From Taibaiella sp. (lineage in GTDB: Bacteria; Bacteroidota; Bacteroidia; Chitinophagales; Chitinophagaceae), in assembly GCA_019638495.1 (NCBI GenBank), contig JAHBTQ010000002.1, forward strand, positions 806,001 through 870,000: a stretch of 64,000 nucleotides of DNA. Reading direction: 5' to 3'. Made by a program: the position numbers and the translations under genes. The notes beneath the pieces were generated by a model, which was not told the DNA's origin, ran no database searches, and saw only the letters and a program-made list of their open reading frames with translations. This document shows positions 16,691 through 49,999 of this stretch, one piece after another (positions within the stretch are counted from its first letter, which is position 1; every line of letters starts with the position of its first letter).

Positions 16691-17839
16691 TCAGCCATAC
16701 CGCTTCCTCAGTTCATCAAAATTCACCCCCGTCGTGTCAAACACCGATCGCGCCACACCACCAGTATATACCTCCGGCAGCACACACCTCAGCAGCGCAC
16801 TTTCACTATCAGCAGCACCCGCAAAATCCACCGTCTCCACAAAAAATGGAGTCTTTTTATACAAGTAGCACTGCGGAGCTATCACCGTCACCACATCACC
16901 CGTCCTCACTATCCGGTTATTCAGCGTCCACCCCTCCATCGATATCGCCAGCGGCACATGCCGCAGCTCACGCGCCAGCTCCTGTGCAGCCACAGTCTCC
17001 AGGCTCGTCGTCTCACCACTCACCTGCGTCACCCGCTGCGGCCTGTACACAGCACTCCACTCCCGCGTAGTGCTCAGCCTGCCCACCGGCGCATTATAGA
17101 TACTTGCATTATTGTTCACAGCCGCCCTCCAGTCATGCACAAACGGCACATAAGGGTTATACACCGGGTTTGTGTTCTGCGTCATGCCACCCTGCGCCTC
17201 AGCCACTATCTCACTGTGCATCATCTGCCCATTAAACGATAGGTCAAACGTCACACCCGGCCTACCCTGCTCAAAGTCATACACCGGCGCCGTTGTCTTC
17301 GCCTGCGTTATCACTACATTACCATCCTTATCATGCGTCAGCTGCAGGTTCAGCGCCATAGCCATGTGCGTCAGGTATTCAGCACACGTAGCGCCACGGT
17401 TCTTCTCATCCACCGTCACCGCATTATTAGCAGCAGCCGGCATCTCCACACCATTGTTCAGCTTCAGCCCAAACGCGTCACAGATCCTCTTCGCCACAGC
17501 AGCCAGGCTCTCAGTACTCTGCGTTGTGTCCACCACCGCACTATACTTTATATCCCCCAGCACACCACTACGCGTATATCCCGTCACAGGCACCAGCGCA
17601 TTCGTCGCCGCCGTCCTGAAGCTAGGGCTCAGCAGCACACCCGTTATCAGTACCTCACCACTATCACTTATCACCTCAGCCGTGTTATACGCACCCGGCC
17701 TCATGATCTCCCTGTGCACCGGGTCCCATGGGTCAAAATATAGATCAAACGAAAAAGTACTAGCCAGCGAAGCATACACTAAGCTCACACTCAGGTTCAC
17801 CCACTTGTCAAATACCCTACCGTTTACCTTCAATTTCAT
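16691..17839 (-). CDS. Baseplate hub protein (Mu gpP / gp44-like)
   Basis: 382 residues, the usual length of the family. It starts with an MKLKVNGRVFDKWVNLSVS strand pair typical of gpP/gpD hub proteins, has a central segment (VTGYTRSGVLGDI) and a late strand region (ISMEGWTLNNRIVRTGDVVT). It acts in the baseplate centre, holding the spike. Its neighbours gpN-like (before) and gp45-like (after) reproduce Mu N-P-45. Confidence 0.8.
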   Translation of the reverse strand: MKLKVNGRVFDKWVNLSVSLVYASLASTFSFDLYFDPWDPVHREIMRPGAYNTAEVISDSGEVLITGVLLSPSFRTAATNALVPVTGYTRSGVLGDIKYSAVVDTTQSTESLAAVAKRICDAFGLKLNNGVEMPAAANNAVTVDEKNRGATCAEYLTHMAMALNLQLTHDKDGNVVITQAKTTAPVYDFEQGRPGVTFDLSFNGQMMHSEIVAEAQGGMTQNTNPVYNPYVPFVHDWRAAVNNNASIYNAPVGRLSTTREWSAVYRPQRVTQVSGETTSLETVAAQELARELRHVPLAISMEGWTLNNRIVRTGDVVTVIAPQCYLYKKTPFFVETVDFAGAADSESALLRCVLPEVYTGGVARSVFDTTGVNFDELRKRYG

Positions 17840-17924
17840 TTCTTCACTATTTCAAAAACCATGGACATTCACTAATTGTCAAATTGCCGAATTGTCTCAT
17901 TCCCTCCCCTTCAGGGGCCGGGGG

Positions 17925-19190
17925 TTACACATAATACACCACCTTCGTCCCCTTATCCACCTGCAGCAGCGTATTCAGCCCCGCATTATTTTCCTCCATC
18001 AGCCTCGTTATCGTGCTATCATCCGGCAGCAACCCATACAGCTCCTTCGCCAGGCTTATCCAGTTGCTATCCTTCATCACCACTATCGTCCGCTTCTGCT
18101 TCGCCTGCTTTGCCACCTCAAACAAGTAGCTCAGCGTATAGTACACCAGGTTAGTCAGCTCATTCAGCGTCCCCGCATCCGGCACATACACATCCACCTC
18201 ACCACCATTCGGCCCCTGCATCACATCCAGCGCCGCTATATACTGGTTATAGCTTCCCGCCAGTTGCTGTATCACCCGCACCACACCACTACTCCGGTCA
18301 TACGCCGTCCCCGGGTTATACGTCGCCGCCACACACATCGCACCCAGGCACGTACCACCATTCACCTGAAACAGCCTTTTCTGCGTCGGCAGGTCTATCA
18401 GTCCCGCCTGCAGCATCAGGAAGTTAAATTCATTGATCAGGTACGTCATCCTCCGGTCCAGCGTGTCCAGTATCGTCGCCGGCAGGCTCATGAACGACTG
18501 CACGCTAGCTATCGCACGCGCCGTCCTCCCTATCACAGTATCTATCTCATCATTCACCGTGTTGTAGATCCGGTTTATGTTCGCCGCAGCATCATTATAC
18601 TTGTTTATCACCTCACTACCCGCCGTGCTTATCGTCTTTATCGCTTTCTGAAAGCCATTCAGATCATCACCCATATCCTGCACATCCTGCACACTCGGAG
18701 CCGGCACACTATTCACATAGTCCGCAGCATACCCTATATCCAGCCTGCCCTTAGCAGCACTCACCACATCAGCAGCATTCTCCGTCGGTGCCAGGTTGCT
18801 CTCCTCTATCGTCTCCATCACCGGGCCCGTTATCCGCGTCGTGTTCAGTATCTTGTCATTGTTGTCAAAGAACAGCCCATCTATCGGCTGCACCACCAGC
18901 CTCCCATACTTCGGGTGTTGTATCACCCATGGCTTCGGGTTCGCAGCACTCTTCCTGAATTCCGTGGCCGTCCTTATATGCTCCGCCCCCTGGAATATGA
19001 TCTCCAGCCCATACACAGCACCCATCGGCCGGTTACGCCTCACCAGCGTACCACTCACATTCCTGAAGTTGAATTGAGACACATTATAACCCACCAGGTA
19101 GTTAGGGTTCAGCACATTCGGCTTATACACCTTCCCATCACCCGTCGTTATCGAAAAAACCTGCTTATCTAACTCCTGCCACGTTGCCAT
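17925..19190 (-). CDS. Tail/DNA circulation protein (Mu gpN-like) with LysM-like tail
   Basis: 421 residues. The N-terminal 100 residues resemble the DNA-circulation-N family of Mu gpN (FRNVSGTLVRRNRPMG, then HPKYGRLVVQPIDGLFFDN). The C-terminal about 45 residues (SWISLAKELYG... as WISLAKELYGLLPDD, then LNTLLQVDKGTKVVY) resemble a LysM-type module found at the end of several tail baseplate proteins. It sits directly before gpP-like. Likely role: baseplate or tail-tip assembly. Confidence 0.75.
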   Translation of the reverse strand: MATWQELDKQVFSITTGDGKVYKPNVLNPNYLVGYNVSQFNFRNVSGTLVRRNRPMGAVYGLEIIFQGAEHIRTATEFRKSAANPKPWVIQHPKYGRLVVQPIDGLFFDNNDKILNTTRITGPVMETIEESNLAPTENAADVVSAAKGRLDIGYAADYVNSVPAPSVQDVQDMGDDLNGFQKAIKTISTAGSEVINKYNDAAANINRIYNTVNDEIDTVIGRTARAIASVQSFMSLPATILDTLDRRMTYLINEFNFLMLQAGLIDLPTQKRLFQVNGGTCLGAMCVAATYNPGTAYDRSSGVVRVIQQLAGSYNQYIAALDVMQGPNGGEVDVYVPDAGTLNELTNLVYYTLSYLFEVAKQAKQKRTIVVMKDSNWISLAKELYGLLPDDSTITRLMEENNAGLNTLLQVDKGTKVVYYV

Positions 19191-24599: not shown

Positions 24600-26651
24600 T
24601 TACCCAACAGCAGTTTTACCTCCCCAGCTACCCCACTCTCCCGTAAAAGTGTTGATCGTCTTTATTTTCACAGCCATCGCACTCGTTCCCTTCGCCGTCA
24701 CATCCATGCCACTACCGTTGTTAATGTTTATGTCCAGCTTCTCCGGCCGTCCATTCCCACCACCACCATATTTCATCGCATTAAAGTCCACCTGCGTCTT
24801 CATGATGCTGCTATGCCTGTCACCCAGGCTATCCACACCCTTCGGCATCAGGCTGTCTATAGTAAGCATCGGCAAGCTATATTGCATAGTACTGTCCCGT
24901 TTTTTCTTAGAAAGAAGCTCATATATAGGCAGATCACTCATCATGAATCCAGCCGCAGCAGCACTATCAATTTGTGAATCACTAAATCCCCTGCTTTTTA
25001 AAAAATTTATTTCTGGCGTAGGTCGGTTATTATCACCAAAGGTTAAATATGACAATGATGCTTTCCCGCGTTCAATTTCCTTCTGCAAAGGTGTTTTTTT
25101 ATTCCACTCCTCACTTTTGTTCCACGCTTCCCAAATTGCAAAAAGCGGTGCAAGTTGTAATACCGTTTGTGCCGCAGCTAATCCCAACGCCTTTATAGAA
25201 AAAGTCGCACCAGCAGCATACCCCGGAACAGCCGCCATACTTATGTTCAGCAGCCCACCCTGCAGCGCCAGCGCACCCGTTTGCGCCGCAGCATACCCCA
25301 TCACAAAATTCCACGCCACCATAGCGCCACGCGCCACCATCATTACCTTACCCAGCCCGGCTATCCCAAACGAAACCGCAGAAATACCCAGCGCCAGCAC
25401 ACCAGCAGCCGTCGCACCCTTCAGTATTATGCCTGTCAGCGTCTTATGCTCTTTCGCAAATTTTGTTACGGGCTTGATGACAGATGTAAACAGCCCCAAC
25501 ACACTGTTTAATGCTGGCAATAGGGTGTTACCCAACTCTATTCCTAATGCCCTCACATTGTTTTTAAGCATTTGGTATTGCGCGGCAGCAGTGGCGTTCT
25601 TCTTCGCCGCTTCCGCAGCCAGGCTCGTACCCTCCTTAAATGCCTTGTTCGATATCTGGCGCAGTTCCGCCAGCCTTTTCTCATCACCCAGTATGTTCAG
25701 CACCGCCTTCTCATACGTATCAGCTATGCCCAGGCTCTTCAGCAGCGTTTCCTGCTGCTGCGGCCCCATACCACCTATCGCCTTCTCAAATTTTTGTGCA
25801 AACGTCACCGGGTCCAGGCTCAGCAGCCGCTCAGCCTCCGCAGTCGTCAGCTTCATCTGTGCCGCAAATGCCGGCAGGCTCTTCGCAGCATCACTCAGAA
25901 AAGCCACAAAAGCCGTTCCGCCACGCTCACTGTTCACACCCTGCTCCTCCAGCAGCGCAGCCAGTGCTGCAGCATCCGTTATTGCAGGCCGCATCACATC
26001 CGGCGCAGCACCCATTCTCAGCAGGAAGTCATTTATGTTCTGGCTAGTGGCCTTACCCACCGCACCCAGCTCATTGATCACGCTACCCGCCCGGGTAATG
26101 CTCTCACTTATGTTCAGCTTCCGGGTGTCCTTAAACAGGTTGTTCAGCTTACCTACACTCGTTATCGCCTCCTCTACACCACCGCCATAGTCCTTACCCA
26201 GCGCTATGTTAAACTGGTCAGCAGCCTTCGTAAAAGCCACCAGCTCCTCCTTCGCTATCCCCAGTTGTCCACCTATCTCACCTATCTGCAGCAGGTCATC
26301 AATGCTGCTCCGCGTCTTCGTCGATACCGCCAGTATATCCTCACCAAATCGCTCCAGCTCAGCACCCGCCAGCCCCGTTGTCTTCGCTATGTCGGCCAGG
26401 CTGTCCTCAAAGCTCACAGCCTCCCTCACCGCCAGCCCTATCGGAGTCATTATAGCCAGCCCCAGCGCACCCGTGGTCTTGCCCACCTCCAGCGCCTTGC
26501 TGCTCGTCCGGGTAAATGAGCGCTCCATCCTCGCCAGCGTGCTGTCACTCACCGTGCCCAGCCGCGCAGTAGCCGCAGTCATCTTGTTCACCGTAGCGGT
26601 GTACAGATCCTTTGCGGTAAATATGCTCGGTATGATGTTTGGCTTACTCAT
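24600..26651 (-). CDS. Tail tape measure protein (TP901-type core)
   Basis: The ATG at 26651 (coupled ATGA with the preceding frame-shifted gene) gives 683 residues. The N-terminal core (about 60-350) carries TP901/PhageMin_Tail features: SFEDSLADIAKTTGL, LAVSTKTRSSIDDLLQIGE, GKATSQNINDFLLRMG. Hydrophobic segments lie at about 395-480. Length would set a rather short tail. A low-GC patch (about 24885-25170) differs in base use from the rest of the gene, suggesting a mosaic exchange. Confidence 0.88.
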   Translation of the reverse strand: MSKPNIIPSIFTAKDLYTATVNKMTAATARLGTVSDSTLARMERSFTRTSSKALEVGKTTGALGLAIMTPIGLAVREAVSFEDSLADIAKTTGLAGAELERFGEDILAVSTKTRSSIDDLLQIGEIGGQLGIAKEELVAFTKAADQFNIALGKDYGGGVEEAITSVGKLNNLFKDTRKLNISESITRAGSVINELGAVGKATSQNINDFLLRMGAAPDVMRPAITDAAALAALLEEQGVNSERGGTAFVAFLSDAAKSLPAFAAQMKLTTAEAERLLSLDPVTFAQKFEKAIGGMGPQQQETLLKSLGIADTYEKAVLNILGDEKRLAELRQISNKAFKEGTSLAAEAAKKNATAAAQYQMLKNNVRALGIELGNTLLPALNSVLGLFTSVIKPVTKFAKEHKTLTGIILKGATAAGVLALGISAVSFGIAGLGKVMMVARGAMVAWNFVMGYAAAQTGALALQGGLLNISMAAVPGYAAGATFSIKALGLAAAQTVLQLAPLFAIWEAWNKSEEWNKKTPLQKEIERGKASLSYLTFGDNNRPTPEINFLKSRGFSDSQIDSAAAAGFMMSDLPIYELLSKKKRDSTMQYSLPMLTIDSLMPKGVDSLGDRHSSIMKTQVDFNAMKYGGGGNGRPEKLDININNGSGMDVTAKGTSAMAVKIKTINTFTGEWGSWGGKTAVG

Positions 26652-27345
26652 TTCTTCCACCCCTCTCGGGCCTTCCTCAGTGATTCCTCCATATACCGCT
26701 GCTCTTCTACTATATCCTGGTAGTGCAGCAGCAGTCCATGGTGGTCTTTATCATCCAAAAAAAGCCGATCTACTACGATCGGCTCCCATCCCTTTTTCAT
26801 TAGTACAGTACGCACTATGTTACGTATCGCATTACTATTCAGTACAGTGCCGTTACTTAGAGTATAAAAAAAACCCCCACACTCGCCAGTATTGCGCCAT
26901 CCTCACTGTCCAGCTTACCTATCACACCCGCAGGCTGGCCCGTCAGTGCAGCACCTATACCATTCGTTATACCCTCCTCTGCAGCCTCAGCCCTGGATAG
27001 GTCCTCCATCCTCAGCCGTGGCTTATACGTCAGCTTTTCCGCAAACACGCCACCCTTATCATTCAGTATTGGGAATTCCAGTTTGTGCGTTATCACCTTC
27101 GTGTCCGGGTCAATGGTTATGATACTATACATCACCGCCTCCACCAGCTTCATAATGTTGCGCACATTGTTCATACGCACACTCGGCTTCACACGCTTAT
27201 AGTCCAGCCACGCTACCACCTCCTCACGCGCAGTCTCCAGTGGCACCAGCATCTTATACAGACCCGTTTTCACAGCATCTTCTCCTGGCTGCTGCTCGCC
27301 GCCATTCTGCTGCTGCTCTGTCACATTTTCGTTCAGATTTTCCAT
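26648..27345 (-). CDS. Tail assembly chaperone long form made by -1 frameshift (E-E' fusion)
   Basis: The short frame (26857-27345) stops four codons after a run of eight T. If the ribosome slips back one base on the T run, reading continues for 72 codons (YTLSNGTVLNSNAIRN...REGWKK) to a TGA that overlaps the tape measure ATG. The fused product would have about 232 residues. The arrangement between tube and tape measure genes is the standard one for P2 E/E', lambda G/GT and Mu 41 equivalents. The extension has no ATG of its own near its beginning. Confidence 0.75.
26757..26784 (-). terminator. Terminator-like hairpin inside the frameshift extension
   Basis: AGCCGATC pairs perfectly with GATCGGCT across a 6-base loop and is followed on the minus strand by seven T. 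It lies about 80 bases after the slip site, within codons of the extension and upstream of the tape measure start. It may be an attenuator that lowers tape measure transcript. Confidence 0.5.
26857..27345 (-). CDS. Tail assembly chaperone, short form
   Basis: 162 residues with a Gln/Glu-rich start and a central region (AREEVVAWLDYKRVKPSVRM) typical of tail chaperones that act on the tape measure. A gp41/E-type role is inferred mainly from position between tube and tape measure genes and from the slippery T run at its end. The short form should be made in excess of the fused form. Confidence 0.7.
   Translation of the reverse strand: MENLNENVTEQQQNGGEQQPGEDAVKTGLYKMLVPLETAREEVVAWLDYKRVKPSVRMNNVRNIMKLVEAVMYSIITIDPDTKVITHKLEFPILNDKGGVFAEKLTYKPRLRMEDLSRAEAAEEGITNGIGAALTGQPAGVIGKLDSEDGAILASVGVFFIL
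26866..26873 (-). promoter_or_regulatory. -1 ribosomal frameshift slip site
   Basis: On the minus strand GGGGGTTTTTTTTATA has the zero-frame codons GTT TTT TTT, so the T run offers T TTT TTT for tandem slippage. The zero-frame stop follows three codons later. Confidence 0.65.
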
Positions 27346-27426: not shown

Positions 27427-27843
27427 TTACGATATCTTCTGCAGTACACCACCACCCGCCAGCTTAATAGAGAACGTGCTGCTCTTACCATCACCTATAG
27501 GGTTACCCACAGGCTTACCGTTTCCGGCATATACCACCCCGTTAATGCTGGTTATGGTAAAGTCCGTAGTCTCCACCACGCCAGCGCATGCCACCATAGC
27601 TTCCAGCTCCATGCGGTTACTTTCCAGCATACTCCACGCAACATTGTCGGTCTCAAAGCTCCAGCGTGTGTTGGTCATGGTATCTATCATGTTGCCGCCG
27701 CTGTCCACTCCGTCATCAGCATCCTCACTGCGATAACCGCCCAGGTTATACTGGCTGCTGCAGCCGCTCTTAAACAGCAATCGGCCAGACCCTAACACAG
27801 GGTTATTCCACGTTATCTCCCGTACATCGCCTCCACTTGGCAT
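27427..27843 (-). CDS. Tail tube protein (Mu gpM-like)
   Basis: 138 residues, close to the length of contractile-tail tube proteins. The sequence is rich in strands and turns (GRLLFKSGCSSQYNLGGYRS, then TNTRWSFETDNVAWSMLES) and is placed directly after the sheath gene, as M follows L in Mu. It would form the inner tube through which DNA passes. Confidence 0.75.
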   Translation of the reverse strand: MPSGGDVREITWNNPVLGSGRLLFKSGCSSQYNLGGYRSEDADDGVDSGGNMIDTMTNTRWSFETDNVAWSMLESNRMELEAMVACAGVVETTDFTITSINGVVYAGNGKPVGNPIGDGKSSTFSIKLAGGGVLQKIS

Positions 27844-27939: not shown

Positions 27940-29457
27940 CTAGCTGGCAAACCCAGCCTGCACCTGCGTGCTCACTATCCTCACCACACCGCTGCGTTTA
28001 TAGCTGAAGAAGATGTTAAACCTGTTCGGGTTATCCGTAGGTATCTCCACCCTCGCGCTCTGTATCGTAAACTTCGCATCAGTTATCAGCCCCTTCTTCT
28101 CCTGGCCCGTTGCCCATTTAGCAATAGCAGCCTTCACGTCCTTCGGCTTCACCACCTTCTGTGCCGTCACCTGCGCATTGTCAGCAGCAATCTGCTTATT
28201 GCGGATCACCTGGTCCTGCAGTAAGTACCAGCTAAACTTGTTGTTCATGTCCACCAGCACATCACGCACCCAGCGGAAGCTCGGAGGCACCTCACCATCC
28301 GGATGGTAGGTCGTCACAAAGTCCTGCACCTGGTATGCACCATCCACTATCAGCACAGTGCTCATGCCCTTCTTCACCACAGCATCGCGCACAGCCCAGC
28401 TCGCAGTCGCCGGTATGTCACCATCCGCTGGCAGCGGCATGTCAGGGTAGCTTTGTCCCTGGCAGTCAATATTTGGCGTGTCCTGCGCCGTCACAGCCTC
28501 CAGCACCACCATGTTAGATGCCGCCTCCAGCGGCAGACCCAGGCTCATCGGTGCCGGTGCCACAGCTAACGTCATCTGCGCCTTCTGCGCCTCCGTTACC
28601 GTCGTGTCACTGCTGCTCGTCGTCGTGTCCACAGTGCTGCCGCTCACCACTATAGCAGGCTTCATCACTATTCCCGCCCATTGGCCCGTCTTCGCATTTG
28701 CATTGCCGTTCCAGTTCGTAAACGATGTGATCACACTTGATACCAGGCCGTAAGTATTCACTATTAGAGTGTTCCACGTGTCACCCAGCGCCGTCAGGCC
28801 AGCAGCCACGCTCGGCGTACCGCTGCCTGCCGTAACCTCAGCCACAGCATAGCTCATACCACCCGTGTTACCGTTGGTCAGCACACGTATGTCTATATCT
28901 TGGCTCGTCAGTCCGCTCCATTTCGCAGTTGCAGTCACCTCACCGGCAGTGTTCTCAGCAGTCACAGGGCATTCCAGCACAGCGCTTATAGCAGCCACTA
29001 TCTTAGCAGCCACAGCCGTCGCTGTATCACCACTTACCACGTTTATGTCATAGTTCCCCGTTGCCTTTCCTCTTCGTCCGCATATCAGCAACGTGTGCGT
29101 CACATTTGCAGTCGCTGTGCCGGTCACAGTTATTGTCTGCACATTGGCAGCAGCGCCACTAGCAGCCAGTTGCGGCACAAACCATACCGGTATACCCGCT
29201 ATCCTGTTGCCATCAGGGCCAAAGATGATATCAGCAGCCGCCTGCAGCGGACTTCCCCAGCCAAACAGTGTACCCGCCTCCTGCACAGTAGTTACCTGCA
29301 CTGGCGTCACCGGAGTACTCTGGTTGTCATCATTCATCTCGCCAAACACAGCTATCCGCATCGGCAGATTGCCCGTATCCTCCGAAAAATTAGCAGCCTC
29401 TACACTGTAGCCTACTACCCTCGAAACCGCACCCGCACTCACCGCATATCCTGACAT
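27940..29457 (-). CDS. Contractile tail sheath protein (Mu gpL-like)
   Basis: 505 residues, matching Mu gpL (495). Typical features are the early RIAVFGEMNDDNQS segment, the mid TWNTLIVNTYG and ASNMVVLEAVTAQDTPN regions (the latter like Mu's pA.Rpl.TL.L.G in position), and the C-terminal domain with NPNRFNIFFSYKRSGVVRI. This gene establishes the phage as a myovirus. It is the first structural gene after the terminase and is separated from it by a terminator and a large repeat. Confidence 0.88.
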   Translation of the reverse strand: MSGYAVSAGAVSRVVGYSVEAANFSEDTGNLPMRIAVFGEMNDDNQSTPVTPVQVTTVQEAGTLFGWGSPLQAAADIIFGPDGNRIAGIPVWFVPQLAASGAAANVQTITVTGTATANVTHTLLICGRRGKATGNYDINVVSGDTATAVAAKIVAAISAVLECPVTAENTAGEVTATAKWSGLTSQDIDIRVLTNGNTGGMSYAVAEVTAGSGTPSVAAGLTALGDTWNTLIVNTYGLVSSVITSFTNWNGNANAKTGQWAGIVMKPAIVVSGSTVDTTTSSSDTTVTEAQKAQMTLAVAPAPMSLGLPLEAASNMVVLEAVTAQDTPNIDCQGQSYPDMPLPADGDIPATASWAVRDAVVKKGMSTVLIVDGAYQVQDFVTTYHPDGEVPPSFRWVRDVLVDMNNKFSWYLLQDQVIRNKQIAADNAQVTAQKVVKPKDVKAAIAKWATGQEKKGLITDAKFTIQSARVEIPTDNPNRFNIFFSYKRSGVVRIVSTQVQAGFAS

Positions 29458-48358: not shown

Positions 48359-49842
48359 CTAAAACGTTACCAGGCTCCTAAACCGCTCATATCCGTAAGC
48401 ATTACTCTTTTGCAGTAAAGGCAGCAACATATCAGCACGCATCTCCTTTACCTCGGCCAGTCCATTACTTTCCAGCCACATTGCGCAGCCAGCCTTACAT
48501 GCACCGGTTATAGCCCTGTAATGCTCTATAGATACTATAGTATCTGCATGTATCGGTTCCTTCTTCATTCTGTCCGCCATCATCTTATAGCGCACATCCT
48601 CCATGGCCCCTTTCAATTCCTCACCATGAGCATAGAATTCACCCATCTGCGCTATATAGAAGTAACGCTCCTTGTTCACGCTCTTAGCATGGTATATCGT
48701 AGCCGTCACTCCATCAGAAGTATTTTCTTTTCTGCTAAGTATCTCACAGAATATACCGTCTACCAGAGCATGCTCCTTGCCATCCTTTTTCCAGAAGTAG
48801 TTTTTGTTGATCCTCAGTTCTGGAACCTGGGCACCTATGTATGTGCTTTCAGACCTCAGGTCAAGGGACCCGCCGACCGTAGGGTTAAAGCCCTCAGGTA
48901 TTGAAGTCAGCGAACTCAGGTCAAGGGACCCGCCGACCGTAGGGTTAAAGCCCTCAGGTATTGAAGTCAGCGAACTCAGGTCAAGGGACCCGCCGACCGT
49001 AGGGTTAAAGCCCTCAGGTATTGAAGTCAGCGAACTCAGGTCAAGGGACCCGCCGACCGTAGGGTTAAAGCCCTCAGGTATTGAAGTCAGCGAACTCAGG
49101 TCAAGGGACCCGCCGACCGTAGGGTTAAAGCCCTCAGGTATTGAAGTCAGCGAACTCAGGTAAAGGGACCCGCCGACCGTAGGGTTAAAGCCCTCAGGTA
49201 TTGAAGTCAGCGAACTCAGGTCAAGGGACCCGCCGACCGTAGGGTTAAAGCCCTCAGGTATTGAAGTCAGCGAACTCAGGTCAAAGGGACCCGCCGACCG
49301 TAGGGTTAAAGCCCTCAGGTATTGAAGTCAGCGAACTCAGGTAAAGGGACCCGCCGACCGTAGGGTTAAAGCCCTCAGGCATTGAGAATCCAGCGAACTC
49401 AGGTAGGGACCCGCCGACCGTGAGTTAAAGCCTCAGGTATTGAAGTCAGCGAACTCAGGTAAAGGGACCCGCCGACCGTAGGGTTAAAGCCCTCAGGTAT
49501 TGAAGTCAGCGAACTCAGGTCAAGGGACCCGCCGACCGTAGGGTTAAAGCCCTCAGGTATTGAAGTCAGCGAACTCAGGTAAAGGGACCCGCCGACCGTA
49601 GGGTTAAAGCCCTCAGGTATTGAAGTCAGCGAACTCAGGTAAAGGGACCCGCCGACCGTAGGGTTAAAGCCCTCAGGTATTGAAGTCAGCGAACTCAGGT
49701 AAAGGGACCCGCCGACCGTAGGGTTAAAGCCCTCAGGTATTGAAGTCAGCGAACTCAGGTAAAGGGACCCGCCGACTTTTTCAGCACCGGAAAACTGAGC
49801 CTCAGTAATGCCGGATCTTTTTAAAAATTTTTGCTTATCCAT
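48359..49842 (-). pseudogene. Repeat protein of 20-residue GGSLYLSSL units with C-terminal domain, frame broken
   Basis: The N-terminal start MDKQKFLKRSGITEAQFSGA (49842) runs into tandem units GGSLYLSSLTSIPEGFNPTV. These are LRR-like solenoid repeats known in phage proteins of this phylum. A unit with several indels near 49381-49439 causes a stop at 49399. An extra base near 49284 shifts frame again. From about 49280 the original frame resumes and continues without a break into a C-terminal domain (YFWKKDGKEHALVDGIFCE, then YRAITGACKAGCAMWLESNG) ending at 48359. An intact gene would encode about 490 residues. The breaks could be real or assembly errors in the repeat. Confidence 0.75.
48853..49777 (-). 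repeat. 60-bp tandem repeat array, 16 units
   Basis: Sixteen units of 60 bases are almost identical; the main variation is TCAAGGG versus TAAAGGG, which switches LDLSS to LYLSS. One unit (49381-49439) is 58 bases with several small changes and one (near 49284) has 61 bases. Units abut with no spacers, and they encode the solenoid of the repeat protein. Confidence 0.92.
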
Positions 49843-49999
49843 TGTTATTAGTTTTCGTCTCATACACCAGTATCCTCCGCTTCAGCTCCACCAGTTCCCG
49901 CTCATCCTTCTCGCTCAGTCCCCTCATTTGCTGTTTGTTCACCAGCAGCACCACCGTCGCCATTGCCTTGCTATACTCATTGTGGCTATAAAATGTCAT
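49835..49999 (-). CDS. Small helical protein (54 residues)
   Basis: ATG at 49999 after GGAGGGGAG, a strong ribosome site for this genome. The product (MTFYSHNEYSKAMATVVLLV, then a charged helix) overlaps the start of the repeat protein by eight bases (ATGGATAA). No family recognised. Confidence 0.6.
   Translation of the reverse strand: MTFYSHNEYSKAMATVVLLVNKQQMRGLSEKDERELVELKRRILVYETKTNNNG

Follow-up and report, generated by a model that had tools for sequence, protein, structure and literature searches.

A predicted -1 frameshift at a T8 run in the putative tail assembly chaperone gene of a contractile-tailed Taibaiella prophage

Results

The putative chaperone locus and its reading frames

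The DNA that we analyzed (the window) is a stretch of 64,000 nucleotides from Taibaiella sp. (assembly GCA_019638495.1, contig JAHBTQ010000002.1, positions 806,001 to 870,000), which harbors a prophage with a contractile tail. All genes of the region considered here lie on the minus strand, and matches to PHROG profiles give their order as sheath, tube, chaperone gene, and tape measure. The tail sheath protein of the contractile tail is encoded at 27940-29457 (phrog_165, E=6.8e-82), the tail tube protein, whose gene is upstream of the chaperone gene, at 27427-27843 (phrog_4699, E=4e-21), and the tail tape measure protein at 24600-26651 (phrog_25337, E=1.2e-51; PF10145). Other prophage genes with PHROG matches include terminase, baseplate wedge/J, hub, portal, and further baseplate genes. 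The chaperone gene thus sits between the major tail (tube) gene and the tape measure gene, and the first-pass annotation, which had likened this placement to that of E/E' and G/GT from the letters and open frames alone, is borne out by the profile matches.

The 0-frame of the chaperone gene encodes a short form of 162 aa (27345-26857, minus strand), which starts at the ATG at 27345 and stops at the TAA at 26859-26857. Its 3' end reads GTG GGG GTT TTT TTT ATA CTC TAA. Within it, a T8 run (26873-26866, minus strand; phase GTT TTT TTT) contains the slippery heptamer T TTT TTT at 26872-26866. The -1 frame opens at TAT (26866), reads TAT ACT CTA AGT and onwards, and provides an extension of 72 codons (26866-26648, minus strand; YTLSNG...REGWKK) that closes at the TGA at 26650-26648. 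This stop codon overlaps the ATG of the tape measure gene (26651-26649) as ATGA. The predicted product across the slip junction contains the peptide SVGVFFYTLSNG. The earlier annotation had the position and length of the 72-codon frame, and its overlap with the tape measure start, right, and erred in placing the end of the short frame four codons after GTT TTT TTT; the TAA is the third codon past the last TTT, with two sense codons between them.

The T8 at 26873-26866 is the only coding-strand T8 within a gene, the two others being located between open reading frames. It starts within a GTT codon, which accounts for ~7% of the valine codons of the prophage, yet is used at the slip site. A second T run (T7) is found inside the extension at 26757-26763 on the minus strand (CGG CTT TTT TTG GAT in the extension frame).

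Open-frame length in the prophage

The -1 frame of ten sense-strand genes of this prophage contains 8.2% stops, and runs of at least 72 open codons begin at 0.2% of its positions. Antisense frames, on the other hand, are kept open by composition for hundreds of codons (up to 666 aa), so that open length alone is weak evidence in this genome. The first-pass annotation had argued that nothing else explains an open frame of such length; the argument from length alone is weak, and the frame itself stands on the 0.2% chance in the sense direction together with the comparison of homologues described below. Judged from sequence, it is this comparative evidence that is decisive for the extension being real.

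Very long frames, the longest of 666 aa, stay open opposite prophage genes at 17172-19172 on the plus strand and in many other places in the window. They look like composition artefacts, and they can mislead gene calling that relies on length. Elsewhere in the window, an open reading frame at 49399-49863 on the minus strand contains near-perfect repeats of GGSLYLSSLTSIPEGFNPTV.

Homologues and protein families

In profile searches, the short protein matches phrog_4648 (E=5.8e-4); searched by itself, the extension matches phrog_5697 (E=3.9e-5). Both families are listed as ‘unknown function’. Each family is matched in the expected half by 27 of 27 aligned members, comprising the window gene and 26 homologues. 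The two families most likely represent the halves of a single frameshifted tail chaperone, which provides a likely function for both. The window protein has no match in Pfam, including PF10109 (Phage_TAC_7; E, 41, 14), which is weakly matched by four of the 27 members (best E=0.0054), and hence it should not be filed in PF10109.

Relatives were drawn from IMG/VR contigs and a phage collection, some of them via divergent phage queries. No relative of the short protein was found in 199 related genomes or, by profile search, in 395 genomes of the phylum; neither the short protein nor, by profile, the extension has a relative in the genome contig collection; and the phage collection queried with the window protein yielded no relative. 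Matches to phrog_5697 in other genomes are weak. A search for SusD was negative, and the apparent link to phages of Bacteroidota comes by way of the kin.

In total, 36 loci were assembled, of which 29 are tabulated and seven are additional; they take in the window and three phage isolates, and a few are nearly identical to one another (such as L002/L003 and L004/L005). In 36 of 36 loci, the end of the short frame comes soon past the T run, and the extension follows in a shifted frame. Many of the contigs were fetched via the extension, so that having one is not independent evidence in those cases. Thirteen contigs were fetched through the short protein alone (L002-L005, L010, L011, L068-L073, and L076), and every contig or phage hit that we inspected after reaching it in this way has the extension. 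Homologues lacking it, which the first-pass annotation had named as the observation that would speak against a frameshift, were thus not encountered in any of the 36 loci. In 28 of the 29 tabulated loci, the next open reading frame is the size of a tape measure gene (593-712 codons); L018 has none by the same test.

The extension is well conserved, with alignment columns D38, D41, G44, W48, and Y49 invariant or nearly so. Both parts of the gene have dN well below dS in adequately diverged pairs, such as L041/L043 and L042/L047; the closest pairs (L002/L003 and L004/L005) have too few changes for the comparison.

Conservation of the slip site and alternative explanations

The window gene belongs to clade A of the tree, where its nearest kin is L012 (support 98/95). 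Sites in this clade take the forms NTT TTT TTT (T8), NTT TTT TTC (T7), TAT TTT TTG (T6), and ACG TTT TTT TTG (T8), with T8 the most frequent run length; L048 has a weaker site, ATC TTT TTC. Across the homologues, the T run stays in one codon phase. Silent Ts are retained at the site, and the product of the codon frequencies is ~10^-12.6, a figure that overstates the conservation since it ignores kinship. The alignment of relatives that had been proposed as a check of the original annotation therefore finds both T run and extension conserved in the 35 related loci.

How the two frames come to be joined has to be weighed against several alternatives. RNA polymerase might itself slip at the T8, adding a U or dropping two, so that a fraction of the mRNAs would carry the fused frame. 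The T8 of the window is long enough for this, and its sequence fits polymerase and ribosomal slippage alike. However, relatives keep the same arrangement with T7C, T7 plus A, T6G, and T5-T6, which are too short for efficient polymerase slippage, and they keep the codon phase of the run, as tRNA slippage requires. Runs of varied length and third base in an unvarying phase fit tandem tRNA-Phe slippage rather than polymerase slippage, and we consider the transcriptional route unlikely.

We give even less credence to two other possibilities. If the extension were a separate small gene, translated alone from an internal start codon, the tabulated region of the window would offer an ATG at codon 22 and a GTG at codon 17; but such start codons are not conserved, L010 has none anywhere in the extension frame, L041, L046, L050, and L055 have no start before codon 34-52 of the extension, and an internal start would truncate the conserved part of the domain. 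We rejected an internal start on the lack of conservation of these codons, and regard it as highly improbable. The same holds for the idea that the open frame arose by chance, or that a single gene was split by a recent frameshift mutation or a sequencing error. Spurious long open reading frames are common on the antisense strand of this genome, but the sense -1 frame affords such a length at only the 0.2% of positions given above, on which count chance was rejected; sequencing error was rejected because the same split recurs at one place in 36 loci, with the extension columns conserved. No relative among the 36 loci reads through both parts in a single frame without a slip site.

RNA structure and predicted folds

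There is no unusual downstream structure at the window site (z=+0.6 over 50 nt and +0.2 over 101 nt), and scoring of the homologous loci by z did not find a stimulatory RNA structure conserved across the family; single loci (L015, L018, L043, and L048) reach z of -3 or below, and most others do not. Like the site of the P2 E/E' family, that of the window fits a -1 slip on T TTT TTN that does without a hairpin. With regard to upstream stimulation, Shine-Dalgarno sequences are seldom used in Flavobacterium johnsoniae, and shifting at prfB is poor (PMC12421855), from which it seems unlikely that an upstream Shine-Dalgarno sequence would be stimulatory there.

Structures were predicted from an alignment without public phage rows. 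The AlphaFold2 model of the short form has a pLDDT of 89, and its best three matches in a BFVD fold search (E 1e-6 to 5e-5) are viral proteins without a name. Those named as tape measure or tail assembly chaperones have weaker E-values (E 0.015 and 0.033, probability 1.00). In sequence, as the Pfam results above show, the likeness to named chaperones is weak. A PDB fold search with the short-form model gave no match, and sequence-profile searches found no PDB relative. The extension is modelled as helices (pLDDT 86), and its fold search gave no significant match.

Discussion

Comparison with known tail assembly chaperones

With its predicted slip, the window gene adds a well-conserved case to a type of phage tail-assembly frameshift that is best known from P2. 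The closest known system is P2 E/E+E' (Peduovirus), in which the gene likewise lies between the tube and tape measure genes of a contractile tail and undergoes a -1 shift. The slip occurs on T TTT TTG and does not have a downstream hairpin (PMC3091744, citing Christie 2002 and Xu 2004); this site, which can be seen in the P2 sequence, compares with T TTT TTT in the window. The first-pass annotation was correct that the poly-T slip sequence differs from that of lambda, although poly-T slippage is neither new nor unusual for contractile-tail phages, given its use by P2. The short form is much longer here (162 aa vs. 91 aa in P2) and the host groups differ. An hhalign comparison places P2 E' against the extension profile at HWPPSEL (E=3e-4, probability 40%), which is suggestive of shared descent; for the 0-frame part, the match of P2 E to the short form (E=0.029, probability 2%) is not strong enough to prove it.

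Phage Mu has the same order of sheath, tube, chaperone with a shifted extension (gp41 / Mu_56), and tape measure. In contrast to the -1 shift predicted at T8 in the window, the Mu shift is -2 (verified, according to a note in its record) and occurs without a T run. Mu gp41 aligns weakly (E=0.013), and the Mu extension does not align with that of the window. In lambda G/GT, a short form and a rare -1 extended form are made ahead of the tape measure gene; the part shared by the two forms binds the tape measure protein, and tube subunits bind to the extension (PMC5009743). Lambda has a different slip site and a non-contractile tail, and lambda G has no detectable sequence similarity to, and no alignment with, the window protein.

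The position of the gene, the homology of each half to a conserved family, and the conservation of site and extension fit a frameshifted tail assembly chaperone. We therefore favor, with a probability of roughly 0.93 on the sequence evidence, the explanation that the prophage makes two products of its tail assembly chaperone gene from one start by means of a -1 slip. The gene would work like a P2-type chaperone: most ribosomes would stop at the TAA to give the 162-aa short form, and a minority would slip by -1, with two Phe-tRNAs in the P and A sites on T TTT TTT, and translate 72 more codons to make a 232-aa form. If lambda G/GT and P2 E/E' are a guide, the part common to both forms may coat or bind the tape measure protein, while recruiting or binding tube subunits may fall to the extension, with the ratio of short to long form presumably set by the efficiency of the slip. 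The sequences show the reading frames, the slip site and its conservation, and the family homology of the two halves; we infer that slippage occurs, that it is ribosomal, and that its efficiency and the chaperone action of the products are of this kind.

Flavobacterium and Cellulophaga phages

In the cultivated Flavobacterium phages FCOV-F56 and FL-1 and Cellulophaga phage phi38:2, homologues of both the short frame and the extension occupy the corresponding position, with shorter T runs (T5-T6), and FL-1 needs a -2/+1 rather than a -1 shift. The P2-type poly-T site is thereby extended to Flavobacterium and Cellulophaga phages and their kin, and the family includes lytic Flavobacterium columnare phages, in whose records the chaperone goes unannotated.

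These phages are of the type found in clade B, in which 0-frame ends such as GTT TTT TCA TAR are followed by the extension in the -1 frame in L069 and L070, and in the -2/+1 frame in L071, L072, L042, and L047; FL-1 (L030; ATT TTT TCA TAG) and L018 (GTT TTT TTA TAG) also need -2/+1. The required shift thus differs between loci that are closely related and whose T runs (T6 in the -1 relatives) are nearly identical. Six independent -2/+1 records make sequencing error unlikely. On the tree, three label changes are needed and neither shift group forms one clade in any bootstrap tree. The direction of the shift appears to have changed more than once; the strongly supported branches taken alone are compatible with a single origin. 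In 19 of 27 loci, TAG closes the 0-frame, as opposed to a TAG share of 16% among the other open reading frames of these loci (binomial P ~6e-10, with kinship left uncorrected). On balance, we lean towards a reading in which the T5-T7 run of the flavophage branch serves either a -1 or a -2/+1 shift, with an evolutionarily labile direction and a 0-frame stop biased to TAG; small indels past the site would flip the frame that is needed, and a hairpin would not be consistently present. The mixture of -1 and -2/+1 relatives would form a natural series of this lability, and offers a direct test of what sets the direction of a shift.

The records of FCOV-F56, FL-1, and phi38:2 describe the products of this region as hypothetical proteins only. 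In those of phi38:2 and phiSM, the two halves are given as two hypothetical proteins, and in those of FL-1 and FCOV-F56 the extension is left unannotated. In a weak hint that the products may act in tail assembly and be left out of the virion, several neighbors in the phi38:2 record are labelled as structural proteins, while the two genes of the chaperone region are not.
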